Shown here in pieces: positions 8,132-37,572 of a stretch of 64,000 nucleotides of DNA; the stretch's first letter is position 1; every line of letters starts with the position of its first letter. The notes below the pieces were generated by a model. The model was not told where the DNA came from. It made no database searches and was given only the letters and a program-made list of their open reading frames with translations. The stretch is from Iningainema tapete BLCC-T55 (GTDB lineage Bacteria; Cyanobacteriota; Cyanobacteriia; Cyanobacteriales; Nostocaceae), in assembly GCF_014698965.1 (NCBI RefSeq), contig NZ_JACXAE010000084.1, positions 31,475 through 95,474 on the forward strand, in the 5' to 3' direction. Made by a program: the position numbers and the translations under genes.

Positions 8132-9523
8132 TTAACTCAACCTTTCATATATTGTTGCCAAGGCATCAGCATCGCCCACATTTCCGGGAAACAGTACCAC
8201 AGGTAAATTAGGAAACAGGGGATGGTCATTAGGAGTAATTACCATCGAACAACCAGCTAAAATTTGACCTAGTAACCGTGCTGAAGTTAATTCCAGACCA
8301 GTACTCAAAACATCGTTTGAGGTAATGCCGCCCTTACTAATTAAAAATCCTATGTCAGAAGGTAAACCTTTGACAATATCCATTAGTAAAGTTGAAACTT
8401 TTGTGCCAAATTGCAAACGTGTCGTTACATCAGCAAAAGAAAGTTCCTGCCGACTAGTATAAACTACAGGTGTTTTCCCAGCTTTATGTGCTGCATGGAC
8501 GCTGGTAAGTATCTCATTTAACAGTATCGCTGATTGGCTTGGTGCATCATCAAGTAACCTTGATACCTCAACTTCGATTCCTACCGTACCCTCAGCTTGC
8601 AACAGTACCTCTAATTGTTGAGTAGTCTTTTTGACATGAGAACCAACAATTACTGCACCGGGTTTACCTCCGCGCACATACTGTGCCATATTTTCTGCGG
8701 CAATGGGTTGGGGAGGTAATGCCGCTAAAGCAGTTAAGATCGAAGCAGCACTACGAAACAGAAAGCGTTTTCCGTGACTCGCTGCGGCAAGAACATCTTG
8801 TGCAAAACGATCTAAATCCGCTTGCGTTTCTCCATCCACAACAACGCACTGATTACCATTAAGTTTCATTAAGCGTTCTAGAGAACCAGCACGAATATCT
8901 GCTAGTAAAAATCGAGTTACAGATTGGGAAGAAATACGCCCTTGAGTTTTTTCTTCAACATAATCTGGTAAGTAGCTGTGATGGTAACCAAAAACTGAAT
9001 CACGAGCAAACTCAGTTTCATGCACTGGAGTTGGTACGCCGTTGATAATTAGGTAATGTACGCTATCGCGGGTAATGCGTCCACCTTCAAAAAATGCTGG
9101 GACGAGAAAATGAGCATCAAAAGGACCAAGTTCTTGAGCAATTACATCGGTTTCGATGGGGTAATGTCCCCGTAAAGTTGAATCGGAACGACTGACAATG
9201 AGAAACTTAACCCCCCCTGTATCCCCCCCTTGTGAAGGGGGGGAAAAAACCCCCCCTGTATCCCCCCCTTGTGAAGGGGGGGATACAGGGGGGGTTAATT
9301 CCAACGCTAGTTTCAAGTTATGGCAAACTTCTTTAGTTACAGATGCTGCTGCTTCTGGAGGCAGCGCTCTTGTATTCGTTAGTACAAAGAATATTGGTGA
9401 ATCATCCTGTAGTCCCAAGCGTAGGGTATCCACATCCCAACGCATTAGTAGCAAGCAGCTATGGACTGTTTGAGAACCTGTGGGATCATCATCTAGGACA
9501 ATAATTTTTGGTTTAGTGGTCAT
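8132..9523 (-). CDS. Four-carbon acid sugar kinase family protein (DUF1537), with internal repeat insertion
   Basis: The 463-residue protein starts MTTKPKIIVLDDDPTGSQTVHSC, the family N-terminal DDDPTG motif that binds substrate. The middle has SRSDSTLRGHYP, and the C-terminal nucleotide-binding half has GSHVKKTTQQLE, SKGGITSNDVL and VITPNDHPLFPNLPVVLFPGNVG. Related enzymes phosphorylate four-carbon acid sugars such as threonate or erythronate; the real substrate here is not known. Residues about 79-104 (TPPVSPPSQGGDTGG repeated) are encoded by a C-rich palindromic repeat read in frame and should be a loop. The gene follows the membrane-protein gene on the same strand by 7 bp, so they may be co-transcribed. 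Confidence 0.85.
   Translation of the reverse strand: MTTKPKIIVLDDDPTGSQTVHSCLLLMRWDVDTLRLGLQDDSPIFFVLTNTRALPPEAAASVTKEVCHNLKLALELTPPVSPPSQGGDTGGVFSPPSQGGDTGGVKFLIVSRSDSTLRGHYPIETDVIAQELGPFDAHFLVPAFFEGGRITRDSVHYLIINGVPTPVHETEFARDSVFGYHHSYLPDYVEEKTQGRISSQSVTRFLLADIRAGSLERLMKLNGNQCVVVDGETQADLDRFAQDVLAAASHGKRFLFRSAASILTALAALPPQPIAAENMAQYVRGGKPGAVIVGSHVKKTTQQLEVLLQAEGTVGIEVEVSRLLDDAPSQSAILLNEILTSVHAAHKAGKTPVVYTSRQELSFADVTTRLQFGTKVSTLLMDIVKGLPSDIGFLISKGGITSNDVLSTGLELTSARLLGQILAGCSMVITPNDHPLFPNLPVVLFPGNVGDADALATIYERLS
9211..9297. repeat. C/G-rich palindrome with duplicated left arm inside a gene
   Basis: The left arm (ACCCCCCCTGTATCCCCCCC form) appears twice before the complete palindrome closes with GATACAGGGGGGG. 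The total length is a multiple of three in effect, since the DUF1537 gene stays open across it. Confidence 0.9.
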
Positions 9524-9530
9524 TTTTATA

Positions 9531-10172
9531 TCAAGGGTGCGACTGTAATTTTTTTATCTGTGCTTGCACATCAAGGGCTATCTGCAATGATTGATTTAAA
9601 AGTTGAGCATATTCAGTTTGACTACTTACTTGTAAAGTTTGTAGATTTGTTAAATTATTGGCAAATAATTCTTGATTGTTACTAAGCAGTCTTTTATTAT
9701 CCCGCACAATGCGTTCTATTTTCAAAGCACGAACTAAATCTTCACGTACTAGCTGCAAAGCTGTAATAACTTTGTCGCGATCGCTCATACTCTGTTGATT
9801 CTCATCTATACTATTGAGCGACCACAAAATTGCGTGATATTTATCGACTTGTTCTAAAAGTGTGGTTAGTAGTCGAGAATAAGTCAAACGCCGCCTGAGC
9901 CAACGCACTGAGAGAACAGCGATCGCCACTACAATAAGTAGAATAATAAACAACTCAGTTGATTGACCAATTGTGGGACGAATGATCAATGCATAGATAA
10001 CACCCACAATGATTGCCGTTAGTACCAACGTTACCACTATTTCATTGCCGAGAAATTTTGAACGCTGGTGGCGATCGCTCATTAGAGAACGTCGCATGAT
10101 AGTATCTGGAGCAAAACCAGTCAAACGTCTCAGTTCTCCCTTAGAGATTTCTAATCCTAGCAATGGCTGCAC
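9531..10172 (-). CDS. Two-helix membrane protein with C-terminal coiled coil, function unknown
   Basis: The reading has 213 residues. Two adjacent membrane segments are visible at about residues 44-66 (VVTLVLTAIIVGVIYALII) and 72-90 (FIILLIVVAIAVLSV), followed by an Arg-rich cytosolic boundary (RWLRRRL). The C-terminal half is rich in Leu, Gln, Asn and charged residues and should form a helix or coiled coil. The start is GTG; ATGs at codons 26 and 31 are alternatives. I do not recognise the family. It precedes the DUF1537 kinase gene on the same strand by a few base pairs. Confidence 0.6.
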   Translation of the reverse strand: MQPLLGLEISKGELRRLTGFAPDTIMRRSLMSDRHQRSKFLGNEIVVTLVLTAIIVGVIYALIIRPTIGQSTELFIILLIVVAIAVLSVRWLRRRLTYSRLLTTLLEQVDKYHAILWSLNSIDENQQSMSDRDKVITALQLVREDLVRALKIERIVRDNKRLLSNNQELFANNLTNLQTLQVSSQTEYAQLLNQSLQIALDVQAQIKKLQSHP

Positions 10173-10652: not shown

Positions 10653-11957
10653 TCATTCTAATAAAGAAAGTTGAGTTGTTGGTTGATTAACTACATAAGC
10701 GACAGGCTTGCTAATTTTTATCACCTTATCTTCGCTTACTGCTCTATTTAACCAATCCTGCATTTGTGATAATCTTACATCCAAACATTCAGCAAGAGAT
10801 TTTGCATCCTTGGGTTGTTGTAAATGATTGAGAATAAAAGGTAAAACAGCTTCATAAATATCTTTTGGACTAAGTTGAACCTCTTGGGGACGATTATCTG
10901 AGGCAGCATTTGAAGTTATCGTAGTTACTTCAGTCTGTACTAATTCAACAGAGGAAACAGCCGTCGCCAAAAGTTCGCTTAATGAATTATCCCAAGGTTC
11001 AGCAGGAAAAGGTTTCGCTCCCATATTGTGTAGTTGCCGATTACCTTCTGAAACAGTAGGATGCATCCGCACAAAAATTGGAACATCTTGCCGTTGCAAA
11101 GTTTCAACTGCACCCGCCCAAGTACCACCCTTATTAACAGAGGAACTAACCACAAGAGCATAATCAGCTAATGTATAAATGTACTTGTTTCGCCCCATTG
11201 CATTACCAGTATTGAAACCAGCATCAGGATCGTAACTAGAAACCAACGTAAGTCTACCCTCTTTAATGCTATTACGGTAGTTACCGTTCACCCCTGCCTT
11301 TGTTAAACTATCAGCCAACACACCCACAGCAGTTCCTCCAGCATTCAACACGCCCAGCATAGCTGCAGTATCCACCCCACGCGCCCCACCAGAAATCACC
11401 TGCATTCGGAGTTCAGCCATCTTTTGTGCTACTCTTTGCGTGTAACCAAGTATCTCCTCATCGACATCGCGAGAACCAACAATTGCCAGTCCCCCCATAG
11501 ATAGTAGTTCGATGTTACCAACCCCATAGAGAATTGCTGGTGCTGAATGTCTTAATCTCTGCTTGAGACGCTTGGGATAGTTTGTGTCACTTCTTCCCAG
11601 CACCCACAATCCCTGATTCGTCCACTTCTCAACGGCAAAACTCAGCATTGCACCTCTTTCTAGTAAACTTAACAAGCGATCAGGGTTAAGTTTACTAACA
11701 GTAATTTTTTGTAACTGTTCTTTTGCTGTTGGTTGAAGTAAATCTGCTGGGCGCATGTGGTTTTCTAGCAACCACTCAGCCAAACAGTTATACTCACTCA
11801 AAGTCAGGGGTTGTGGTTCAATTTGGCGATTTTGTCCAAAGCTGGCACATAGCAGTAAAATTGCTTGAGTATCAGGAGCTAGCACGTGAGTTATGGCGGT
11901 TTTCATTCTGATATGATACACCTGCGATCGCGCTGATGTGGTATTAATCTCACTCAA
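10653..11957 (-). CDS. DprA-like Rossmann (SLOG) protein with C-terminal winged helix
   Basis: The protein is 434 residues. The Rossmann-type core shows GLAIVGSRDVDEE, then VISGGARGVDTAAM and GVLADSLT, followed by GRNKYIYTLADYALVVSS and GGTWAGA. This is the DprA/Smf pattern of the SLOG superfamily. The last 70 residues (SPKDIYEAVLPFILN to KISKPVAYVV) look like a winged helix, as in DprA. DprA loads RecA onto incoming single-stranded DNA during transformation. Here the gene overlaps the RecQ-fusion gene by 4 bp (ATGA), so translation is coupled. It may be a diverged DprA paralogue in a helicase-linked system rather than the housekeeping DprA. The N-terminal 110 residues are less conserved. Confidence 0.8.
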   Translation of the reverse strand: MSEINTTSARSQVYHIRMKTAITHVLAPDTQAILLLCASFGQNRQIEPQPLTLSEYNCLAEWLLENHMRPADLLQPTAKEQLQKITVSKLNPDRLLSLLERGAMLSFAVEKWTNQGLWVLGRSDTNYPKRLKQRLRHSAPAILYGVGNIELLSMGGLAIVGSRDVDEEILGYTQRVAQKMAELRMQVISGGARGVDTAAMLGVLNAGGTAVGVLADSLTKAGVNGNYRNSIKEGRLTLVSSYDPDAGFNTGNAMGRNKYIYTLADYALVVSSSVNKGGTWAGAVETLQRQDVPIFVRMHPTVSEGNRQLHNMGAKPFPAEPWDNSLSELLATAVSSVELVQTEVTTITSNAASDNRPQEVQLSPKDIYEAVLPFILNHLQQPKDAKSLAECLDVRLSQMQDWLNRAVSEDKVIKISKPVAYVVNQPTTQLSLLE

Positions 11958-14050
11958 GGATCGAAATTACCAAATGAGTTGAGTGCCAATGCCACAGGAA
12001 AAACCAAACCACTGCCAGCACGACGTAAAAGTGCTGCGATTACAGTAAAAGTCCAACGGGAATCGACAATATCATCAACTAAGAAAACAGAACCGCTCAT
12101 TCCCGCCCAAGTTTCAACCGCGAAAGCACCATCTAAATTATGAGCTTGTTGATAACTGTTGCTCATATCTTTTTGTAAATCATTTGGGCGAACTTTCCGC
12201 ACAATTGGCATAAAGGGTAAACCTAATTTTTCCGCTAGCCGTTGAGCAAAATTCGGCACAAGTTCTGGACGATTTAACGAAGGAACACAAGTTACCCAAG
12301 TAGGAGAAGGCTGCACTTGCCAACGTTGAATCATTTCAAAAGCACCCTGTACTAATACATCATCAAAATGATTATCTCGATATTTACCCTGCTTTACTAA
12401 TTCTCCCCAACCCGCATCACCCCACAGAGATAAAGCCCTGCCTTCCTCTGCTTTTAAATTGCTTTTAATGTTGCCAGAAAAGCCATAGATGGGAAAGGCT
12501 TGTGAAGCCCACTGTTTACGCGGTTCAATAATTTGGTCACTGCGACGTAGATACTGAATTGCCTGATTTACAAGCTCGATTGAATAAGTTTCTGGTAATA
12601 AAGTTTTACCTAAACACACAGCACATTTGCCGCAAGCAGTCGGATTTGGATCGTCTAACTCTGCCGCTAAAAAAGCCATTAAGCATTGTTGACTTTGCAT
12701 ATATTCTAACATCCGAGCTTGTTCTTGGCGACGGATTTGTGTAAGTTTTTCTATTTTTTCAGTATCGTGTTGATAAGTTACTGGAGTAGCATACCATTTT
12801 GAACCTTGCTTCACTACAGGTGCAGGAGATTCCAGCGACAGCAGTTTCAAAACTTTATCAATTTGTCCTCTGGAAAGATTTAGTTGCTGTTCCAACTGGG
12901 GAAGAGAAAATCCATCTGTTGCTTGGTTAAGAGTACTTAAAACTTGTTGTGTATGAATTTGTGGAGGAAAGGCTGTATTGATGAAGTAGTTGGTAATTTC
13001 CGAGTCTTCATCACCGCTTAAAAGAATTCCGTAAGCTGTTTCTACTGCTCTACCTGCTCTTCCTACTTGTTGATAATAGTGTACAACAGAACCAGGGCGT
13101 TGGTAATGAATGACAAATCCTAAATCTGGTTTATCAAATCCCATTCCTAAAGCTGTAGTTGCTACTAATGCTTTAATTTCATTTTTCAGAAGTTGCTCTT
13201 CTAATGCTTCACGAACATCACTTTCTAACTCGCTATGATATGCTTCAGCTTTTATACTCTGGGTTTTTAACCAATCGGCAACTCTTTCGGCATCTCTAAC
13301 AGTTAATGTGTAAATAATACCACTTCCAGGTAAGTTAGGAAGTTGTTCTGCTAACCATGCCATTCGGGAAGCTGGATTGGGGATAGAAATATTTTGTAGT
13401 TGTAAACTTTTTCTAGTTAAATTACCTCTGAATACGCGCAGGTTTGCACCCAGTTGAGCGATAATATCATTTACTACTCGATTGTTAGCTGTGGCAGTTG
13501 TCGCAAGTACTGGGATGTTTTGCGGCAGTGCTTGTAAAATTCTCACAATCCGTCGATAATCAGGGCGAAAATCATGTCCCCAGTCGGAGATACAATGAGC
13601 TTCATCAATGACAAATAAACCGATTTTTTGGGACACTGGCAGAAGAATCTTTTCTCTAAATTCTTCGTTAGCTAATCTTTCCGGGGAAATTAGCAGGATG
13701 TCTACTTCTCCTGCTAGCAACTTTGTTTTGACAAGTTCCCACTCGTCTGTATTGCTGGAGTTAATTGTAGCTGCTTTGACGCCAATGCGTTGCGCGGCGG
13801 CAATTTGGTTTCGCATCAAAGCCAGTAAGGGTGAAATTAAAAGAGTACAACCAGCACCTCGATCGCGTAGTAAGCGAGTTGCTAAAAAATATACTAAACT
13901 TTTGCCCCAACCAGTGCGTTGCACGACTAGTAAACGGGAACGCCTCTCCACTAACTCTTCAATCGCTTCCCATTGCCCGGTATGAAAGTCAGCAGTTGGA
14001 TTATCCAGTGACTGACGCAGAAGCGATCGCGCTTCTTCTTGTGTTGTCAT
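11954..14050 (-). CDS. RecQ-type helicase fused to a ComF-like phosphoribosyltransferase domain
   Basis: The protein is 698 residues. The RecQ core is clear: Walker A RTGWGKSLVYF near residue 45, DEAH in FVIDEAHCISDWGHDFRPDYR, ATTATANNRV, and the motif VI segment QQVGRAGRA. A zinc-binding module with four Cys (C-L-M, C-G-K-C-A-V-C) follows at about 450-475. The last 180 residues have no HRDC domain. Instead they resemble a type I phosphoribosyltransferase: VPSLNRPELV, FAQRLAEKLGLPF, KVRPN..Q, and the PRPP-loop segment VFLVDDIVDSRWTFT. This is the ComF/ComFC layout. The N-terminus, length and gene overlap with the DprA-like gene all support one functional unit that acts on DNA. Confidence 0.85.
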   Translation of the reverse strand: MTTQEEARSLLRQSLDNPTADFHTGQWEAIEELVERRSRLLVVQRTGWGKSLVYFLATRLLRDRGAGCTLLISPLLALMRNQIAAAQRIGVKAATINSSNTDEWELVKTKLLAGEVDILLISPERLANEEFREKILLPVSQKIGLFVIDEAHCISDWGHDFRPDYRRIVRILQALPQNIPVLATTATANNRVVNDIIAQLGANLRVFRGNLTRKSLQLQNISIPNPASRMAWLAEQLPNLPGSGIIYTLTVRDAERVADWLKTQSIKAEAYHSELESDVREALEEQLLKNEIKALVATTALGMGFDKPDLGFVIHYQRPGSVVHYYQQVGRAGRAVETAYGILLSGDEDSEITNYFINTAFPPQIHTQQVLSTLNQATDGFSLPQLEQQLNLSRGQIDKVLKLLSLESPAPVVKQGSKWYATPVTYQHDTEKIEKLTQIRRQEQARMLEYMQSQQCLMAFLAAELDDPNPTACGKCAVCLGKTLLPETYSIELVNQAIQYLRRSDQIIEPRKQWASQAFPIYGFSGNIKSNLKAEEGRALSLWGDAGWGELVKQGKYRDNHFDDVLVQGAFEMIQRWQVQPSPTWVTCVPSLNRPELVPNFAQRLAEKLGLPFMPIVRKVRPNDLQKDMSNSYQQAHNLDGAFAVETWAGMSGSVFLVDDIVDSRWTFTVIAALLRRAGSGLVFPVALALNSFGNFDP

Positions 14051-14117: not shown

Positions 14118-16496
14118 TTAGTTTTGGAGTGTATGGCACTTAACACCAGTAGATCCCAAACTATAGGGAGTGGTATTAGGTGCATGGGCGATCAACGTCA
14201 CTTCACCCTTTCCATTAAATACCCAACCAATGGCAGGATTAATCTCCACAGGAGCAGAGGCGGAAGGTGGTTTAATTGTAGTAGTTTTTGAACTACGCTG
14301 CTGATTTGTAGCAACGCTCAGGCGAGTATCTGACCACAAAACATCACTACTGAGTGGTTCGTAAGGATTGGGGGACAAGCCGCCGCGTCCGGTGACAACG
14401 AAGGTACTGCCTGTTTCGCCATTAAAAGCGGCACAGCCAGAGGCAATTTGCCCAGAGACATCGACAACCTGTGCTGGTAAGGCAACTGTCCCGCGATCTG
14501 GGTCAACATCCGGCGTGTTAATTTGTATCCTACCATTTATTCCCAGTTGAGAACTGGCAGTAATGTCATTCGTCTGTGAAGTTTCTTGAACGCGGCGATC
14601 AACGCCAAAGATACCTTGCGTTGTGATATTAATATTACCTCCGCGACCCCTAAAAGCATTGGCAGTAATGTCGCTATTTTCTCCTGGAACAGCGACGATT
14701 AATTTGGAGTTGATATCGATATTGCCACCAGCAACATCCGCACCAACCTGTGAGGTGTCGGCAGAGGTGGTGATCTGACTGTTGTTGCGTAATAGCAATA
14801 AGTCTAAGCCCTGTAGTGTAATATTGCCGCCTTGACCCGATTTGGTTTCAGCGATAAGTTTTCCTCCATCTAGACTTAGATCGCGAGCTTGTATCTGAAG
14901 GTTGCCTGCATTTCCTGACTCTACACCAGCCACAGTTACTCTAGCCCCATCCCGAACAATCAACTGCCCTGTGGTAATTGTTAAGGAACCCGCATCTCCC
15001 GTACCCCGAGTTGAAGCAAACAAACCACTGTTCGGCGAACCATTTAGTCCTGTTCCGCTTAGTTCCACCAAATCCGAGGCAAATACTGTAAGATTTCCTC
15101 CCTTACCCTGACTATTTATATTAGTACCAGCTGTTACCTGTGCTCCATCCCGGACAATCAACTGTCGAGTATCAATCGTCAAAGAACCCGCATCTCCAGA
15201 ACCTAGAGTCTGAGTAAATAAGCCGCTAGGAAAATTCCCAATAGCCGAATTTCCGCTCAGTTTTACCATTGCGGCGGTCACTTGCAACGTTCCTCCACGA
15301 CCTTGGTTTCCGCGAGTACTAGCTGATACATTTGCCCCATTCTCAATCATTAATTGTCCCGTGTCAATAGTCAGATTACCCGCCGCCCCTGTACCAAAAG
15401 TATCTGCAAACAAAGCGCTCGGATTACCATCCGCATCAGTGCCGATCGCTTGCACAAAGTCAGAGGCTTTCACCGTTAAACTTCCCCCAGTCCCCGAACC
15501 CGAAGTAGAAGCTGATATTTGCGATCCATCTTGAATAGTTAACTGCTCTGCACCGATAGAGATTCCTCTACCGTTTTGACTCCCCTGAGTGTCTGCGAAA
15601 AGTAGTGATCCATTGCTGAGCGTGACACGCCTGCCCTGCACTTGAATATTACCGCCGCCCTCGCCACTGACATCGACAATAGCTCGATTGCTAAGTGATA
15701 CATCTGCTGTCGGTACGTTATTCGGAAAACTTAAGGGCTGGTTGTTGCTATCAAGGTTCAATCTGATCGTTCCTTCTCCAAGTATACCTCCCAAAGCGAT
15801 CTGACCACCTTGAGCTTGTAGAAATCCGTTATCCAGGTTCACATTGCCACCCACCAACGCCAAGGTTTTACCTGGTTGTACCGATACTGCCCCTTGCACT
15901 CTTATGTCTGTTGCAGTTCCCCCAAATTGCAGACCTAGTGGTACACTCACTGTCAGTAAGGGTGTTGTTTGAGGAGAAGTTGCACTGAACTCAGTGCCAT
16001 CAGCAAATTTGATTGCGCTAGCTGTACTACCCACAAACGAACCACCCACACTTAGTACGGCATTTGGTCCAAAAATGATTCCATTGGGATTAATCAAAAA
16101 TAAATTGGCATTGGAAGGAAGTATATTGCCGTCGATCGTCTGGAAAGTCCCAAGGATGCCCATAATTTTAGAACTGTTACTACCAGTTACCCTTGCCACA
16201 ATATTCTGAATATTACCGGGACTTAAGAAGAAAGCTGCCCGTCCTTCACTAACGTTAAATTCCTGAAAACTGTGGAACAGATTATTACCTTGAGATACCC
16301 CACCCCTCAGTACTTCTGTAGAACCATCAAATTGGTTCGTGTCAACACGAGAACTTTGAGATCCTAGTGTGTTATCAGGAGTAATAGCGCTTTGGGCAAA
16401 GACACAATCTACAGCACAATAGGCGATCGCCACACCAATTGCCATTGAACTTGCTAGCCTTATTTGCCCAGAATAAAATTTCCAGCTTTGAGACAT
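14118..16496 (-). CDS. Haemagglutination-activity (TPS) domain exoprotein
   Basis: The 792-residue protein has a signal peptide ending near residue 35 (VFAQSAITPD). The TPS secretion domain follows, with N-terminal ITPDNTLG, NLFHSFQEFNV, IVARVTG, NLFLINPNGIIFGPNA and the strand SVGGSFVGSTA. The rest is a long series of short beta-strand repeats rich in Gly, Asn, Ser and Thr (GDAGSLTIDT, GRGGNINITTQG), typical of right-handed beta-helix filamentous exoproteins. TPS proteins are exported across the outer membrane by a TpsB partner. I see no TpsB gene in this window. It is the third gene in a row with two small secreted proteins, 12 bp after the second. A role in adhesion is inferred. Confidence 0.88.
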   Translation of the reverse strand: MSQSWKFYSGQIRLASSMAIGVAIAYCAVDCVFAQSAITPDNTLGSQSSRVDTNQFDGSTEVLRGGVSQGNNLFHSFQEFNVSEGRAAFFLSPGNIQNIVARVTGSNSSKIMGILGTFQTIDGNILPSNANLFLINPNGIIFGPNAVLSVGGSFVGSTASAIKFADGTEFSATSPQTTPLLTVSVPLGLQFGGTATDIRVQGAVSVQPGKTLALVGGNVNLDNGFLQAQGGQIALGGILGEGTIRLNLDSNNQPLSFPNNVPTADVSLSNRAIVDVSGEGGGNIQVQGRRVTLSNGSLLFADTQGSQNGRGISIGAEQLTIQDGSQISASTSGSGTGGSLTVKASDFVQAIGTDADGNPSALFADTFGTGAAGNLTIDTGQLMIENGANVSASTRGNQGRGGTLQVTAAMVKLSGNSAIGNFPSGLFTQTLGSGDAGSLTIDTRQLIVRDGAQVTAGTNINSQGKGGNLTVFASDLVELSGTGLNGSPNSGLFASTRGTGDAGSLTITTGQLIVRDGARVTVAGVESGNAGNLQIQARDLSLDGGKLIAETKSGQGGNITLQGLDLLLLRNNSQITTSADTSQVGADVAGGNIDINSKLIVAVPGENSDITANAFRGRGGNINITTQGIFGVDRRVQETSQTNDITASSQLGINGRIQINTPDVDPDRGTVALPAQVVDVSGQIASGCAAFNGETGSTFVVTGRGGLSPNPYEPLSSDVLWSDTRLSVATNQQRSSKTTTIKPPSASAPVEINPAIGWVFNGKGEVTLIAHAPNTTPYSLGSTGVKCHTLQN

Positions 16497-16508
16497 ATCA
16501 ATATTTTC

Positions 16509-16886
16509 CTATGGTGAAAAAAGCTGCTGCTGTATTACATTTGCAGTATCCAACTCCTGTAATTGCTGACTTAAGTTTGGAACCAGTATTTGCAGTTTCT
16601 GTACTGTTTCTAGATCGTCGTCTATCAGCTTCTGTATTGCTTGTGGATCTTCCTGCTGTAGCTGCTGTATAGCTTCTGGATAAAGCTCTAGCAGTATCCA
16701 TATTGGTCGTTTAGTCCATAGATTAGGTGGATGAGACGGGGGTATAAGTAGCGGGCGTCTACATTCTTGTCCCGGCAGACAAACGGTTTGTGCAATGGCG
16801 TACCCCTCACTAAAGGCGATCGCATAACCTATCACCACTCCCACTAAACTATACGAACAGCATTTATGTATACGAGCTAGGGTCAT
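16509..16886 (-). CDS. Small secreted protein with 11-residue repeats (copy 1)
   Basis: The 125-residue protein starts MTLARIHKCCSYSLVGVVIGYAIA, a signal-peptide-like N-terminus. A Cys pair (CLPGQEC) follows. From about residue 65 four 11-residue units follow the pattern L-x-P-E/Q-A-I-Q-Q/K-L-Q, for example YPEAIQQLQ, DPQAIQKLI. These should form an amphipathic or coiled helix. It is a paralogue of the next gene upstream, and lies 12 bp upstream of the haemagglutinin-domain exoprotein, so one operon is likely. The function is unknown; no family name is recognised. Confidence 0.6.
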   Translation of the reverse strand: MTLARIHKCCSYSLVGVVIGYAIAFSEGYAIAQTVCLPGQECRRPLLIPPSHPPNLWTKRPIWILLELYPEAIQQLQQEDPQAIQKLIDDDLETVQKLQILVPNLSQQLQELDTANVIQQQLFSP

Positions 16887-16949
16887 ATTATCTGGTATCC
16901 TTTAATACTTTCGTAGTTTTTACAGCTAATTAAGCTACCTCTGTATTAA

Positions 16950-17303
16950 TTATCTTGCATACTGCTGTAGTTGCTGTCTTGAATTTGGAGCCAGTTGTTG
17001 CAGCCTCTGTAATGTATGTGGATCAAGCTGCCTCAGTTTCTCTATTGCCTGTGGATCTTCTCGCTGTAGCTGCTGTATTGCTTGTGGATTGAGCTTTTGT
17101 AGTTGCTCTAATAGCCGAGATGGTAACCTAGCTGGTGGATTAGGTTTGATCGGCTTGTAAGATGCTGGCGGGATGACACACGGCTGTCCTGGCAAACAGG
17201 GATTTTGGGCAAAGGCGTACTCTCCCCAAGAAGCGATCGCGTAACCTATCACCACTCCCACTAAAGTATACGAAAAGCATCTATATGTACGAGCTAAAGT
17301 CAT
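16950..17303 (-). CDS. Small secreted protein with 11-residue repeats (copy 2)
   Basis: The 117-residue paralogue of the preceding entry starts MTLARTYRCFSYTLVGVVIGYAIAS. The conserved CLPGQPC motif and four hendecads (NPQAIQQLQ, DPQAIEKLR, DPHTLQRLQ, APNSRQQLQ) align well with the neighbour. The 63-bp gap and matching first residues show tandem duplication. It is the promoter-proximal gene of the putative three-gene secreted-protein operon. The function is unknown. Confidence 0.6.
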   Translation of the reverse strand: MTLARTYRCFSYTLVGVVIGYAIASWGEYAFAQNPCLPGQPCVIPPASYKPIKPNPPARLPSRLLEQLQKLNPQAIQQLQREDPQAIEKLRQLDPHTLQRLQQLAPNSRQQLQQYAR

Positions 17304-19729: not shown

Positions 19730-21019
19730 TCAAGGGTAGAGTCCGCGATCGCTCAGAGCTTGAGCCACACGACCTACACCTAGAGTGTATGCTGCTAACC
19801 GTAGGGGAATTTGTCGCAGTTGCGATTGCTCAATCACCTGATGGTATGCCCGCACCATCAACTGTTCCATTTCCCGATTAACACGTTCTTCATCCCAAAA
19901 TACATAGGAAAGTCCTTGCACCCACTCCAAATAACTCACCACCACACCACCAGCATTAGTCAAAATATCTGGTAACACTGTCACACCCCGCGCCGCCAAC
20001 GCCTGGTTTGCTTGGAGAGTCACAGGACCATTAGCTGCTTCTGCTACAATAGTGGCTTGGACTTGATGAACATTTTCCTCTGTAATTTGGTTCTCCAGAG
20101 CCGCAGGAATCAGCACATCGCAGGGCAAAGTCAGTAACTCTGAATTGGTGATTGATTCTGCTTGTGGGAAACCGACAATACTCCTTCGGTTGTGTGCAGC
20201 ATAGGCTTGCAAAGCTGGAATATCTAAACCATCTTGTGCAAAAACTCCCCCAGTTCCGGTAGAAACAGCTATCACCTTGGCTCCCGCTTGATGTAGTAGT
20301 AAAGCTGCCGCACCGCCAACATTCCCAAAACCTTGGATTGCTACCCGCACCCCTGCTAGTGACTTACCTAAATCTGCCAGTGCCTCCCGTACAGTAATCA
20401 TCACACCACGCCCGGTTGCCATTTCCCGTCCCCGCGAACCACCAATGGAAAGGGGCTTACCAGTCACAACCCCAGGCACAGCATGACCTACATTTACAGA
20501 GTAAGTGTCCATAATCCAAGCCATCTCACGGGCAGAAGTACCCATATCTGGAGCGGGAATATCTACAGCAGGACCAATATCCTTAATCAATTCACTAGTA
20601 TAGCGACGAGTGATGCGCTCGAGTTCGCCAACACTGTAGCTTTTTGGATTGATAGCAATACCTCCCTTCGCACCACCGTAGGGAATGCCAAGTAAAGCAC
20701 ATTTCCAGGTCATGAGCATTGCCAGCGCTGACACTTCCCGTAGTGTCACAGCTTGATGGTAACGAATACCACCTTTATAGGGACCCAAGATATCACAGTG
20801 CTGCACCCGATGTCCAGCCAGAACCTGCACTTCACCATCATCTCGTTTCACAGGAATAGAAACCGTAACTACCTTGCGTGGATTGCTGAGGGTTGCCAAA
20901 ATACCTTGGTCAAGCTTCAATTCTCGCGCCGCCTGCTCTAGGTAGCTACAAGCTTGGTCAAATGGACAGATGTGCGCTGGAGTTGGAGTTTCCAGCGGCA
21001 GCAGGGAAGTTGAAATCAT
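19730..21019 (-). CDS. Glu/Leu/Phe/Val family amino acid dehydrogenase
   Basis: The 429-residue enzyme belongs to the oxidative-deamination family that interconverts an amino acid and its 2-oxo acid with NAD(P). The catalytic region has GPYKGGIRYHQAVT and the conserved Lys in GGAKGGI; DMGTSAREMAW follows. The C-terminal Rossmann region has VAIQGFGNVGGAAA. Length and order match glutamate dehydrogenase or leucine dehydrogenase. I favour glutamate dehydrogenase by length, but cofactor and substrate are not proven. It is divergent from the P450 gene. Confidence 0.85.
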   Translation of the reverse strand: MISTSLLPLETPTPAHICPFDQACSYLEQAARELKLDQGILATLSNPRKVVTVSIPVKRDDGEVQVLAGHRVQHCDILGPYKGGIRYHQAVTLREVSALAMLMTWKCALLGIPYGGAKGGIAINPKSYSVGELERITRRYTSELIKDIGPAVDIPAPDMGTSAREMAWIMDTYSVNVGHAVPGVVTGKPLSIGGSRGREMATGRGVMITVREALADLGKSLAGVRVAIQGFGNVGGAAALLLHQAGAKVIAVSTGTGGVFAQDGLDIPALQAYAAHNRRSIVGFPQAESITNSELLTLPCDVLIPAALENQITEENVHQVQATIVAEAANGPVTLQANQALAARGVTVLPDILTNAGGVVVSYLEWVQGLSYVFWDEERVNREMEQLMVRAYHQVIEQSQLRQIPLRLAAYTLGVGRVAQALSDRGLYP

Positions 21020-32862: not shown

Positions 32863-33028
32863 TCATATTCCAGTATAAGTACGTAATTATAAATCGATTA
32901 TCAGCAAAATTGCGTATATTTATCGTTATCAAATCACAACTAGCCAGCCATGCTTGAGTAGAAGTGAGGAAGTATACACGCGCCTTCTTTGGCTATTCCC
33001 ATTCCGCTACGCCTGTACTAGTAACACA

Positions 33029-35989
33029 ATGACTACAAACAACAATGTATATCAGCAGTTTTTAGCCAGTATCCATCCCTTCAACCTGTTGGAGAGTAGC
33101 AAAATTGAACGTATCGCCAACAAACTTGAACCGTTGCGCTATCGGATGGGGCAAGCCATTTTGGTTAAAGAATCTCTTCCTGCTAAAATTTATATTCTCT
33201 ACCAGGGACAAGCACGCAATTTAGCATACCCTCAAAGTACGATCGCACCCGTTACATTAGAACGACTAGAACCAGGCGCGATTATCGGTGCAGTGGGAAC
33301 AATCCGAAATACCGCATGTGAAACAGCGATCGCATCTACTGATTCTATTTGTCTTACCCTAAAAGTATCCGACTTCCAACAATTATTAGCCACAGAAGCC
33401 GAATTTAGCAATTACTTTTACAACCAATGCAGTACAATTGAAATATACGATTTGTTAGCAGCAGAGTTAGAACGTCGGGGACTAAGTTGCGATCGCTTAA
33501 AAGATATTGCCACAATTGCTGCCCAAAAGGCAAAAATTCTCAACCTACCATCAGGAAAAACCTCACTTCAACAGTTAGAACCTAACTTTTTGTGGCTTGT
33601 CAGTAGCACTGGTAGTAGCCATCCCGTTAATTCTCGACTTGAACTTACAGATAACCAACAATCCTTACTCAGTTCTGGTAAATCAGGAATTCGCCTCATA
33701 GGGTTTGCCGATCCTTCCTTATCATTCTCCCATTCAGATCCCCTACTCCCTCCCTCCACAGAGAACACCAATTGGGATCATATCCCTCTCGCCCCAGAAA
33801 AACCCGAAGCACCACAACAAACTCATCAATCACACAAATATCCTTATATTCATGGTAGAGGACCAGTTGACGCCACTCTCGCTTGTTTCCAAATGTTATC
33901 TCAACACTGGGATATGCCGTGGAGACGAGATGTCATCAAACGCGCACTCGTCAACAACTATCAACGTACTGGTACAGTCTCCATTGAACTATGTGGTGCT
34001 GTCGCTGAACTAATGGGACTAAAATCCCAACTCGTGCAAATACCCGCCATCGCCATATCCCAACTGCCTACACCCGCACTACTTCCTTGGCAAGATAGTT
34101 TTGCAATTCTTTATAAAGCTACAGAAAAAGAACTAATCTTCGCCATTCCCGAACAGGGAATAACCCGTAAAAAACCAGCAGACTTTATCACTACTTGGGG
34201 TGAAGAAGGGCAAGTTTTATTATTACAATCAACGCCCGAAACTGCAAAAAAACGGTTTGGGTTAAGTTGGTTTGCTCCTGCTATTAAAAAACATAAAACT
34301 GCTTTAACTGAAGTATTCATAGCTTCCTTATTCGTTCAATTATTAGGTCTAGCTAACCCTTTAATTACCCAAGTAATTATTGATAAAGTTATTATCCAAA
34401 ATGGTATAAATACTCTCAACGTTTTGGGTAGTTTATTAATAGTAATGGCAATCATTGAGGGGATTGTTACTTGGCTAAGAACCAACTTATTTGCCGATAC
34501 AACCAACCGCATCGATTTATCTTTAGGTGCAGAAGTAATTGACCATTTATTAAGATTACCATTACGCTACTTTGAGCGGCGTCCTGTAGGGGAAATATCT
34601 TCCAGAATTAATGAACTCGAAAATATTCGCTCATTTCTCACAGGCACAGCTCTTACTGTAGTTTTAGATGCGATCTTTTCAGTTATTTACATTGCAGTGA
34701 TGGTATTTTACAGTTGGCTGCTAACAATTGTCGCACTAGCAACTGTACCATTATTTGCACTGCTAACATTTATCTTTGCTCCCATCATTCGTAGTCAAAC
34801 TCGTGGTAAAGCCGAACGCAATGCGGAAACCCAATCATATTTAGTAGAAGTTGTTTCCGGAATTCAAACTGTCAAAGCTCAAAATATTGAACTTAATTCT
34901 CGGTGGCAATGGCAAACACGCTACGCTAAATATATTAGCTCTAGCTTTCAAAATGTCCTTACCTCCAATACTGCTGCTGCGTTAAGCAACTTCCTCAACA
35001 AACTTTCTGGTTTACTACTGCTATGGGTGGGTGCATATCTGGTATTGCAAGGAGAAATCACTCTTGGACAACTGATTGCCTTTAGAATTATTGCTGGATA
35101 TACGACAAGTCCATTACTAAGATTAATTCAACTTTGGCAGAACTTCCAAGAAACAGCACTATCACTAGAAAGACTTGCAGATATCCTCGATAATCCTCAA
35201 GAAAGTGAGATTGCTGGACGTAATAATATCCCCATGCCAGCAATTAGGGGAAGTATAAATTACGATCATGTCACGTTTAGTTTCGCTAAATCTCCCAATC
35301 CTCAACTTAATGGCATTACTTTGGATATTCCTGCTGGTACGTTTGTCGGAATAGTTGGACAAAGTGGTGCGGGTAAGAGTACTCTAACTAAACTTATCCC
35401 CCGATTGTATGAACTTGATGCAGGGCGAATCTTGATTGATGGGTACGACATTAGTAAAGTTGAACTTTACTCTCTACGCTGTCAAATCGGTATGGTGTTG
35501 CAAGATACCTTGTTGTTTGACACCACTGTACAGGAAAACATTGCTTTAACAGTACCCGATGCGACACCAGAAGAGATTATCGAAGCGGCAAAGATTGCTT
35601 GCGCTCACGACTTTATTATGAAACTGCCTCTTGGTTATAACACCCGTGTGGGAGAAAGAGGTTCTGCATTATCAGGGGGACAAAGACAAAGACTAGCGAT
35701 CGCACGTACTGTACTACAAAATCCCCCCCTCCTCATCATGGATGAAGCAACCAGTGCATTAGATTACGTTACCGAACGGCAGATGTGTATAAATTTAGCT
35801 GCCGCATTTAAGGGTAGAACAGTACTGTTTATCACTCACAGGTTAGCAACCATTCGCAACGCCGATATTATCTTGATGATGAATCAAGGAAAAATTGCCG
35901 AAAGAGGAACACACGATGAACTCATGAAAATGAATGGACTCTATTATTGCCTCTATCAACAACAAGAAGCAGCCGGAGTATTAGCTTAA
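33029..35989 (+). CDS. HlyB-like ABC exporter with cNMP-binding-like and degenerate C39 domains
   Basis: The protein is 986 residues from the ATG at 33029; the TTG at 32954 is less likely. An N-terminal cyclic-nucleotide-binding-like domain (KLEPLRYRMGQAILVKE, LEPGAIIGAVG) is followed by a C39-like region. At the Cys catalytic position of C39 this reads GPVDATLAC, with Ala instead of Cys; the His and Asp positions also differ (DSFAILYK, AIPEQG), so the peptidase is degenerate. ABC membrane and ATPase domains follow: Walker A GQSGAGKST, LSGGQRQR, and PLLIMDEATSALD. This matches type I secretion exporters whose inactive C39-like domain only binds substrate. HlyD follows directly. The substrate is unknown. 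Confidence 0.9.
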   Translation: MTTNNNVYQQFLASIHPFNLLESSKIERIANKLEPLRYRMGQAILVKESLPAKIYILYQGQARNLAYPQSTIAPVTLERLEPGAIIGAVGTIRNTACETAIASTDSICLTLKVSDFQQLLATEAEFSNYFYNQCSTIEIYDLLAAELERRGLSCDRLKDIATIAAQKAKILNLPSGKTSLQQLEPNFLWLVSSTGSSHPVNSRLELTDNQQSLLSSGKSGIRLIGFADPSLSFSHSDPLLPPSTENTNWDHIPLAPEKPEAPQQTHQSHKYPYIHGRGPVDATLACFQMLSQHWDMPWRRDVIKRALVNNYQRTGTVSIELCGAVAELMGLKSQLVQIPAIAISQLPTPALLPWQDSFAILYKATEKELIFAIPEQGITRKKPADFITTWGEEGQVLLLQSTPETAKKRFGLSWFAPAIKKHKTALTEVFIASLFVQLLGLANPLITQVIIDKVIIQNGINTLNVLGSLLIVMAIIEGIVTWLRTNLFADTTNRIDLSLGAEVIDHLLRLPLRYFERRPVGEISSRINELENIRSFLTGTALTVVLDAIFSVIYIAVMVFYSWLLTIVALATVPLFALLTFIFAPIIRSQTRGKAERNAETQSYLVEVVSGIQTVKAQNIELNSRWQWQTRYAKYISSSFQNVLTSNTAAALSNFLNKLSGLLLLWVGAYLVLQGEITLGQLIAFRIIAGYTTSPLLRLIQLWQNFQETALSLERLADILDNPQESEIAGRNNIPMPAIRGSINYDHVTFSFAKSPNPQLNGITLDIPAGTFVGIVGQSGAGKSTLTKLIPRLYELDAGRILIDGYDISKVELYSLRCQIGMVLQDTLLFDTTVQENIALTVPDATPEEIIEAAKIACAHDFIMKLPLGYNTRVGERGSALSGGQRQRLAIARTVLQNPPLLIMDEATSALDYVTERQMCINLAAAFKGRTVLFITHRLATIRNADIILMMNQGKIAERGTHDELMKMNGLYYCLYQQQEAAGVLA

Positions 35990-36012
35990 AGTACAACAAC
36001 CACTATTTAATT

Positions 36013-37572
36013 ATGAATACTAATAACGGTAACGGCACAAATGGAAATGGCAATGGTTCTATCCCAAAATTAGCACAATCGACCAATGCCACACTTGAGA
36101 CAATTTTACCAAAACCACCTTCTACTAAACCACGCTACGTTGCTAAATTTGATCAACCAGTCATCTTACAACAACCTAGAAAATGGTCACGCGCAATTTT
36201 ATGGAGTTTACTACTCGTAACTAGTGGTACAGTAGTATGGGCGTCAATTGCTAAAATTGAAGAAGCTGTTTCTGCTACAGGCAAACTCGAAGCTTCTGGT
36301 GCAACAAAAGATGTTCAAGCACCTGTAGGAGGGGTAGTCAAAGAAATCTTCGTTAAGGATGGACAAGCAGTTAAGGAAGGACAAACCCTCATCTTGCTTG
36401 ATAATACTACTGCCAAAGCCCAACTTGATTCATTAACGAAAATTCGTGATTCTCTTGTCCGAGAAAATCAATTTTATCAATCTCAATTGCGTGGTACTAC
36501 TGTTAATATAGCTCCACTTCCGATTAAAAGTGAGATGGTTGATTTAACCAAAAGCCGCGCTGCACTAATAGCAGAAAATCAAATGTACCGCGCTCAGTTA
36601 AATGGTGCTATCTCTGTAAATAATCTCACACTTGAACAAAAAGAAAGATTACGTTCCAATCAAGTTGAACTAGACGCAAGAGTTACAGCCGCGTCTTCGC
36701 AAATCGATCAATCTAAACGTCAACTCCAGCAAACTAACATCCGCCTTGCTTCCACAAAAGACACTCTGAAAATGAACCAGCGGATCTTGGCGGATCTTAC
36801 TCCATTAATGAAAGATGGAGGTATTTCCAGAATACAATATATTAAACAACAAGAAGAAGTCAGAAATAGCCGCAGTGAAATCGATCAACTTACGCAAGAA
36901 AAAGCACGTCTAGTGGCTACAATTACGGAAGGACAAGCGAAACTACAAAATACTGTCGCAGTATCCCGTAAAGATTGGCTGACTCAAATAGCTGAAAATA
37001 ATAAAAGAATTGCGGAAATTGACTCTCAATTAACTAAAGCAATTGTTGATAATAATAAAACAATAGCTGAAACTGACTCGCAAATGAGTCAGGCAAAGAT
37101 GAATTTAAAGTATCAGGAGATTAAAGCTCCGGCGAATGGAACTATATTTGAATTAAAAGCACATACGCCTGGATTTGTGGCAACTGTTCGGGAACCTATT
37201 TTGAAGGTTGTTCCTAATGATAAACTGATCGCTAAGGTATACATAACCAACAAGGATATCGGGTTTGTTAAAGAAGGAATGACTGTAGATGTGCGGATTG
37301 ATTCATTCCCATTTAGCGAATTTGGTGATATTAAGGGTAAATTGGTATCGCTCGGCTCAGATGCACTACCACCAGATCAAATTTATCCCTTCTATCGGTT
37401 TCCCGCGAAAGTACAACTAGACGCTCAGCAGCTAAAGGTTAATGGCAGAAATATCCCTCTACAGTCAGGGATGGGGGTAAGCACGAATGTCAAAATTCGA
37501 GAACGTACAGTCTTGAGTATCTTTACAGATATGTTTAGCTCTAGTATTGAAAGCTTGAAAAATGTCAGGTAA
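36013..37572 (+). CDS. HlyD-like periplasmic adaptor (membrane fusion protein)
   Basis: The protein is 519 residues from the ATG at 36013, just after the exporter stop. A longer reading from 35947 overlaps the exporter and is rejected. An Asn/Gly-rich tail and a membrane segment (ILWSLLLVTSGTVVWASI) are followed by the lipoyl-like pair (VQAPVGGVVKEIFVKDGQAVKEGQTLILLD) and a long coiled-coil hairpin, then EIKAPANGTIFEL and a beta-barrel C-terminus. It forms the bridge between the ABC exporter and an outer-membrane channel. No TolC-like gene is seen here. Confidence 0.92.
   Translation: MNTNNGNGTNGNGNGSIPKLAQSTNATLETILPKPPSTKPRYVAKFDQPVILQQPRKWSRAILWSLLLVTSGTVVWASIAKIEEAVSATGKLEASGATKDVQAPVGGVVKEIFVKDGQAVKEGQTLILLDNTTAKAQLDSLTKIRDSLVRENQFYQSQLRGTTVNIAPLPIKSEMVDLTKSRAALIAENQMYRAQLNGAISVNNLTLEQKERLRSNQVELDARVTAASSQIDQSKRQLQQTNIRLASTKDTLKMNQRILADLTPLMKDGGISRIQYIKQQEEVRNSRSEIDQLTQEKARLVATITEGQAKLQNTVAVSRKDWLTQIAENNKRIAEIDSQLTKAIVDNNKTIAETDSQMSQAKMNLKYQEIKAPANGTIFELKAHTPGFVATVREPILKVVPNDKLIAKVYITNKDIGFVKEGMTVDVRIDSFPFSEFGDIKGKLVSLGSDALPPDQIYPFYRFPAKVQLDAQQLKVNGRNIPLQSGMGVSTNVKIRERTVLSIFTDMFSSSIESLKNVR

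Follow-up and report, generated by a model that had tools for sequence, protein, structure and literature searches.

A PsyrTA (RqlHI)-type gene pair in the cyanobacterium Iningainema tapete, its phosphoribosyltransferase loop and its chromosomal setting

PsyrTA was reportedly described as a toxin-antitoxin and defence system by Sberro in 2013. We examined two genes of this type, psyrT and psyrA, on the reverse strand of a 64,000-nucleotide stretch of the Iningainema tapete BLCC-T55 genome (the whole stretch is called the window hereafter), which an earlier note made from the letters of the DNA had put forward as the best candidate there for an undescribed system. The PsyrTA family is listed as a validated toxin-antitoxin family whose target is unknown (PMC8790059), and it has been counted among the defence systems of bloom cyanobacteria (PMC11265339). 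The RqlH/RqlI pair of extraintestinal Escherichia coli (Russell and Mulvey 2015, PMC4670107) is built alike: first a RecQ-like helicase with a C-terminal phosphoribosyltransferase (PRTase) domain, then, downstream, its DprA-like partner.

RqlH without RqlI causes SOS induction, filamentation and loss of growth in E. coli, and both the growth inhibition and the SOS induction are gone when the PRTase domain is deleted or D663 is changed (D663A). RqlI neutralises the effects of RqlH and co-precipitates with it unless the PRTase domain is removed, and the authors suggested that the PRTase is restrained by RqlI as well as by the helicase domain; the K-12 strain MG1655 lacks the pair (PMC4670107). 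Related modules share the DprA-like component: P2-like phages carry a DprA-PRTase pair that gives protection from T7 and lambda, and shosTA, psyrTA (printed syrTA) and rqlHI have been linked through their DprA-like antitoxins (PMC9122126). A review describes ShosT as both a PRTase and a pyrophosphatase, with purine metabolism as what it disturbs (PMC12593503), and it has been suggested that ShosTA may be responsive to intermediates of replication or recombination (PMC10732053).

Family identity of the pair

Judged by profile matches, gene order and key residues, the pair is a cyanobacterial copy of the known two-gene family PsyrTA (RqlHI). The open reading frame of psyrT (rqlH-type; 11954..14050, minus strand) encodes a protein of 698 amino acids (aa) in which a RecQ-like helicase is joined to a ComF-type PRTase, and matches the PADLOC PsyrT profile PDLC03928 at 1021.7 bits over its full length (residues 2-692 on profile positions 2-685 of 689). 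Its DprA-like partner psyrA (rqlI-type; 10653..11906, minus strand) matches the PADLOC PsyrA profile PDLC03927 at 473.9 bits (profile positions 3-396 of 398). The toxin gene lies directly upstream of the partner on the same strand, in the conserved order; K50 and D149 of the helicase and D663 of the PRTase are the counterparts of K49, D148 and D663 of RqlH (PMC4670107); and structure comparison of a model showed that the C-terminal domain has a ComF-type PRTase fold, with low confidence over the initial ~60 residues that were modelled. The earlier note had thus read the domains correctly, both the fusion of a RecQ core to a ComF-type PRTase and the DprA-like SLOG partner, and the PRTase fold and the conserved pairing by which it proposed to check its reading were both found. 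Its suggestion of an undescribed system is rejected, given the two profile matches and the published genetics of RqlHI. A Trichodesmium pair is named in PMC4670107, so that cyanobacterial members had been noted earlier. The present pair differs from RqlH/RqlI in its host, a cyanobacterium, and in where it lies in the chromosome, and is known from sequence alone; relative to the PADLOC family no difference of architecture was seen, only divergence in sequence.

Within PsyrT, the RecQ helicase core (12929..13993, minus strand; residues ~20-374) carries the Walker A lysine K50 and a DEAH box from D149, and is delimited by matches to TIGR01389 (20-374) and TIGR00614 (21-357). A RecQ zinc-binding-like segment follows (12611..12754, minus strand; residues 433-480, with cysteines 456, 473, 476 and 479), its PF16124 score of 22.7 bits lying slightly below the cut-off of 25. 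The ComF-type PRTase domain (11957..12595, minus strand) spans residues 486-698 and contains a loop of the phosphoribosyl pyrophosphate (PRPP)-binding type, DDIVDSRWT (12050..12076, minus strand; residues 659-667, including D663). PsyrA has a DprA/SLOG Rossmann domain (11010..11621, minus strand; residues 113-316 in the 434-aa numbering; PF02481, 123.7 bits), whose GSR, SGGARGVD and GRNK segments align to solved DprA. A structure model of PsyrA was too poor to use (pLDDT 56.7).

The start of psyrA is likely the ATG at 11906, which gives 417 aa and lies 47 bp after psyrT; a TTG at 11957 would give 434 aa. In 72 of 73 partners from GTDB genomes the alignment to the 434-aa form begins only at residue 17 or later (in the remaining one at residue 8), the gene junctions agree with this, and an independent model, P0241, also has 417 aa. 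The 4-bp overlap of the two genes (11957/11954), which the earlier note took as a sign of coupling, requires the TTG start and is weakened as evidence accordingly.

Neither protein passes for its housekeeping relative: PsyrA scores 86.5 bits with the DprA equivalog TIGR00732 (cut-off 191.15) and PsyrT 310.9 bits with the RecQ equivalog TIGR01389 (cut-off 640.2). The helicase core is shared with DpdF of the Dpd system (PADLOC DpdF matches up to 329.8 bits), whereas NCBIfam DpdF NF041063 gives 171.2 bits against a cut-off of 550. In ShosTA (8zvc, 9vzo), a DprA-like antitoxin with a PRTase toxin, the ShosT examined is annotated as a HAD hydrolase-PRTase protein with no RecQ helicase annotated; the Pfam matches of PsyrT include no HAD family, and a RecQ-type helicase stands there instead.

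The genome has, elsewhere, its own dprA (G000:C61, 265.6 bits), a ComF-like gene (C28, 94.5 bits, below the family cut-off) and a recQ-family gene (G000:C21, 546.2 bits with TIGR00614), so that the psyrTA pair is additional to them. These results bear on the idea that the pair is a rebuilt set for natural transformation, PsyrT standing for ComFA plus ComFC and PsyrA for DprA. The ComF-type PRTase fold, the helicase and the DprA core are real parallels, as the earlier note saw, and had already been pointed out (PMC4670107, PMC5512222); the helicase of PsyrT is of the RecQ type, in which it differs from the competence set. Since the housekeeping genes are present, PsyrA falls short of the DprA equivalog, the pair occurs in only 16 of 388 cyanobacterial genomes, and Russell and Mulvey reported no transformation events with their isolates (PMC4670107), we give this idea hardly any credence.

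Distribution and pairing

Full-length PsyrT was found in 16 of 388 cyanobacterial genomes, the present one included (at least 967.7 bits, reaching profile position 684-687); the next score in this phylum was 422 bits and ended at profile position 479. psyrA lies directly downstream in all 16. In 80 loci from GTDB, a sample that overlaps the cyanobacterial one, a downstream psyrA match above 30 bits was seen in 73, and five loci reach a contig edge. psyrA was not found downstream in two of the 80 despite room for it (L099, L128), so that pairing holds in 73 of the 75 loci with room. The weakest partner match is partial (L125, 63.7 bits), and in L089, L117 and L145, three of these 73 loci, the partner falls into two segments. 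Some of the toxins, too, are incomplete.

Of 205 plasmid records with a match, 11 extend over 80% or more of PsyrT; we studied 10 of these 11 loci (all but H22, which closely resembles H21) together with one partial match. The copies of Nostoc, E. coli and Acinetobacter have a partner, and psyrA was not found within the 4-kb flank of psyrT on a Halanaeroarchaeum plasmid and on five actinobacterial plasmids.

Several relatives depart from the standard pair. PsyrA proteins of ~335 aa that end before the C-terminal helix-turn-helix (HTH) part occur at L050:11395-12402, L051:2448-3455 and L079 (L051 and L079 being one and the same contig), a natural parallel to the finding that the HTH of E. coli RqlI is dispensable (PMC4670107). 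On pSymB of Sinorhizobium meliloti (L059:3986-7492), the psyrA matches downstream of psyrT fall in two reading frames and no psyrA is annotated; either the antitoxin is broken or the sequence contains an error. A Rhodococcus plasmid helicase (L068:4001-5443) shares 48.9% identity with PsyrT, limited to residues 6-479, and many cyanobacteria have another RecQ-like family, mostly of ~545-660 aa, whose matches to the PsyrT profile stop at position ~480 and reach up to 422 bits (L020-L033). In the Gordonia phage Vasanti (L070:2770-4457), a DprA-like gene comes first, a stand-alone PRTase gene second, with an HTH gene adjoining; by its sequence this is a two-gene relative without the helicase.

The PRTase domain as a probable, restrained genotoxin

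The PRPP-binding-type loop bears a family signature. Among 240 listed homologues, which come from two partly redundant searches, its tryptophan is kept in every one (238 by pattern, two by eye), and at its fifth position 231 have D, eight have N and one has G; the position of D663 is N in two of 76 paired loci. The 80 GTDB loci, the best 80 of 588, were retrieved with a PRTase alignment and the loop pattern and so are no evidence for conservation of the loop. Fold alignments used 47 of 240 (A1) and 37 of 120 (A2) listed homologues, and the domain alignment A3 used 20 of 24 pieces from 26 loci, L059 and L061 having been dropped because the cysteine pattern failed. The corresponding loop is DDIYTTGAT in the genome's own ComF-like protein and DDVMTTGST in ShosT, as against DDIVDSRWT here. 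In distant orphans the loop is not fixed: Tsukamurella L067 is without the first Asp pair, and the Nonomuraea and Streptomyces proteins vary. We take the fifth position, that of D663, to be the catalytic-aspartate position of HPRT-type purine PRTases. The RqlH residues had been chosen through an alignment with PurF and Hpt (PMC4670107).

Before the loop stands a QK...N motif resembling the Q...N segment of ComF, found by pattern in 75 of 76 paired loci. The pattern is loose and also caught a chance match; the orphan loci were read by eye. On this reading none of the five actinobacterial loci, where psyrA was not found within the flank, has the motif, whereas L099 and L128 do, and the archaeal locus has QH. 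The motif is a lead on the antitoxin contact, suggested by sequence comparison and confounded by ancestry, since all five orphan loci are actinobacterial.

From the family profiles, the conserved pairing, the PRTase fold and the key residues, and by the family's published genetics, we consider it quite probable that PsyrT is a PRTase-based genotoxin which the DprA-like PsyrA restrains by binding the PRTase domain until phage infection or DNA stress releases it. In this model it is the PRTase that poisons, and PsyrA, bound to it, is predicted to hold it back. The family's patchy presence, the mobile and defence contexts of copies in other hosts, and the protective DprA-PRTase pair of P2-like phages also speak for it. 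The PRTase would use PRPP on a purine-type substrate, disturbing purine nucleotides at or near DNA, and the helicase part would position and restrain it; helicase-dead RqlH is still genotoxic in E. coli, so that the helicase there seems to contribute to keeping the PRTase restrained. PsyrA, which keeps the DprA core, would be drawn off by single-stranded DNA or phage replication complexes, and phage infection or another DNA stress may thus be the trigger that frees PsyrT.

Several observations weigh against this model. RqlH D663A retains modest effects on viable counts, and the RqlH PRTase alone is non-toxic (PMC4670107). Replacement of D663 by N or G in some relatives means that the aspartate is not strictly required by the family, and the only pointers to a purine substrate are the position of this residue and the parallel with ShosT. 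The helicase-dead RqlH variants K49A and D148A reach normal density, yet SOS is up and viable counts are down (PMC4670107), which speaks against a poison delivered by the helicase. PsyrTA expressed in E. coli K-12 gave, in one study (PMC12409345), no detectable phage protection, and a growth defect. The psyrTA genes of the window are, moreover, surrounded by ordinary genes.

The helicase-dead result also lowers our estimate of a second version, in which PsyrT would be a DNA-associated PRTase: its RecQ part on DNA would present bases of the opened strand to the ComF-type site, where the purine-enzyme-like D663 and the family-specific DDxVDS[RG]WT loop would exchange or add phosphoribosyl groups, and PsyrA, as a single-strand sensor derived from DprA, would dock on the QK-motif face and be pulled off by phage single-stranded DNA, and the actinobacterial orphans, in which the QK motif is missing, would have ceased to need it. 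We regard this version as very doubtful.

The earlier note's thought that the pair might serve in conflict or defence remains plausible. PsyrTA is stated, with reference to others, to protect by abortive infection, and 81.8% of 11 PsyrTA strains fell into the phage-resistant group (PMC10855318). The present pair possibly has an antiviral role.

A gene-turnover spot in Nostocaceae

The defence-island setting that the earlier note proposed to look for was not seen: among 57 of the 66 listed genes of the window (psyrTA and minCDE being among the nine omitted) there is no clear island around psyrTA. At E <= 1e-10 the matches were two PDC-S03 candidate models (two members each, best 1.8e-15) and mad3 (one member, 1.2e-30). 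For the neighbours of the 15 other cyanobacterial loci (106 of 165 listed), the best 25 of 163 matched families are headed by type II methyltransferases with three members, each match being assigned to the first gene only.

Within the family of the host, Nostocaceae, psyrA is present in 13 of 60 sampled genomes, and in nine of these it lies within ~15 kb, on the same contig, of a Glu/Leu-dehydrogenase gene (in the window 19730-21019; Pfam ELFV_dehydrog). In a tenth (G334), without such a dehydrogenase match, psyrA adjoins a DUF1537-type gene (SBD_N/NBD_C; in the window 8132-9523) that precedes minC, minD and minE. psyrTA stands between both markers, or between the dehydrogenase gene and a gene of the type found at 9531-10172, in five of the 13 (G000, G191, G410, G423 and G403), and in G391, G402 and G432 the DUF1537-type gene is located elsewhere. 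Among the 47 psyrA-free genomes, the markers are adjacent or have only the 9531-type gene between them in five (L158-L162), other genes separate them by ~3-9 kb in six (L151-L156), and they are not close, or the dehydrogenase gene was not found, in 36. The locus is thus a gene-turnover spot in part of Nostocaceae, with empty, psyrTA-filled and otherwise-filled states. The 9531-type gene, considered as a third component, was rejected as such: it is present at empty sites without psyrTA (L158, L159, L160, L162) and is therefore part of the spot and not of psyrTA.

Among ten proteins from seven psyrTA-free spots, three kinase-FGE proteins match the PADLOC PD-T4-6 defence models with their kinase part (311.0-321.5 bits), and a methyltransferase has a weak match to mad2. 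No PADLOC match was seen for the others, among them NiFe hydrogenase genes and an NB-ARC protein. This cargo is mixed, and it is not settled as defence only.

The stable side of this setting speaks for a host-kept module of DNA repair or recombination, in which PsyrT would unwind damaged DNA and PsyrA load a recombinase, while toxicity in E. coli would be incidental, caused by a repair enzyme out of balance. The pair is near the same markers in 10 of the 13 genomes, and its divergence loosely tracks that of the dehydrogenase (Spearman 0.44 for PsyrT and 0.60 for PsyrA; eight genomes, 28 non-independent pairs), a correlation that is consistent with old residence; the PsyrT and dehydrogenase trees also cover eight genomes, have low support in places and are suggestive only. 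RqlH also occurs without an antitoxin, as on the five actinobacterial plasmids, and Gram-positives have nearly all RqlH only (PMC4670107). The patchy presence of the pair in the phylum and the family, the empty sites in relatives and the plasmid copies argue against such a module, as does the finding that growth inhibition and SOS induction in E. coli depend on the PRTase aspartate, and we hold it to be distinctly unlikely.

The mobile side would fit a selfish addiction module on plasmids and in chromosomal spots, serving its own maintenance with no defence benefit. The Nostoc plasmid copy adjoins parA/parB and is sister to the chromosomal copy of G191 in both the PsyrT and the PsyrA trees, and the K-12 experiment points the same way. 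Yet the E. coli plasmid copy sits between restriction subunits S and R and the Acinetobacter copy inside BREX, and abortive-infection protection has been stated; we find this explanation unlikely, and favour a PRTase genotoxin that PsyrA restrains.

Other features of the neighbourhood are noted in passing. In the DUF1537-type gene, an in-frame PPSQGGDTGGV-like stretch occurs twice (9209-9292) and looks like a short repeat in the coding sequence. A TPS-secretion gene of the filamentous haemagglutinin type (14118-17303), on the psyrT strand, ends 67 bp before the psyrT start and is preceded by two short similar proteins. At 32954-37569, a peptidase-C39 ABC exporter that includes a cyclic-nucleotide-binding domain likely forms a peptide export pair with the HlyD-type protein that comes after it.

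What the analysis adds to a known system is the PRPP-loop signature, the natural variants and the turnover spot. The cyanobacterial set provides natural material on the substrate and trigger of PsyrTA, namely D663 variants with N or G, antitoxins without the HTH, and PsyrT without partner and QK motif, together with a chromosomal spot in its three states. If the purine-pool version is true, PsyrT would be united with ShosT; if PsyrT instead acts on DNA, it would be a helicase-coupled toxin with a new kind of genotoxin chemistry.

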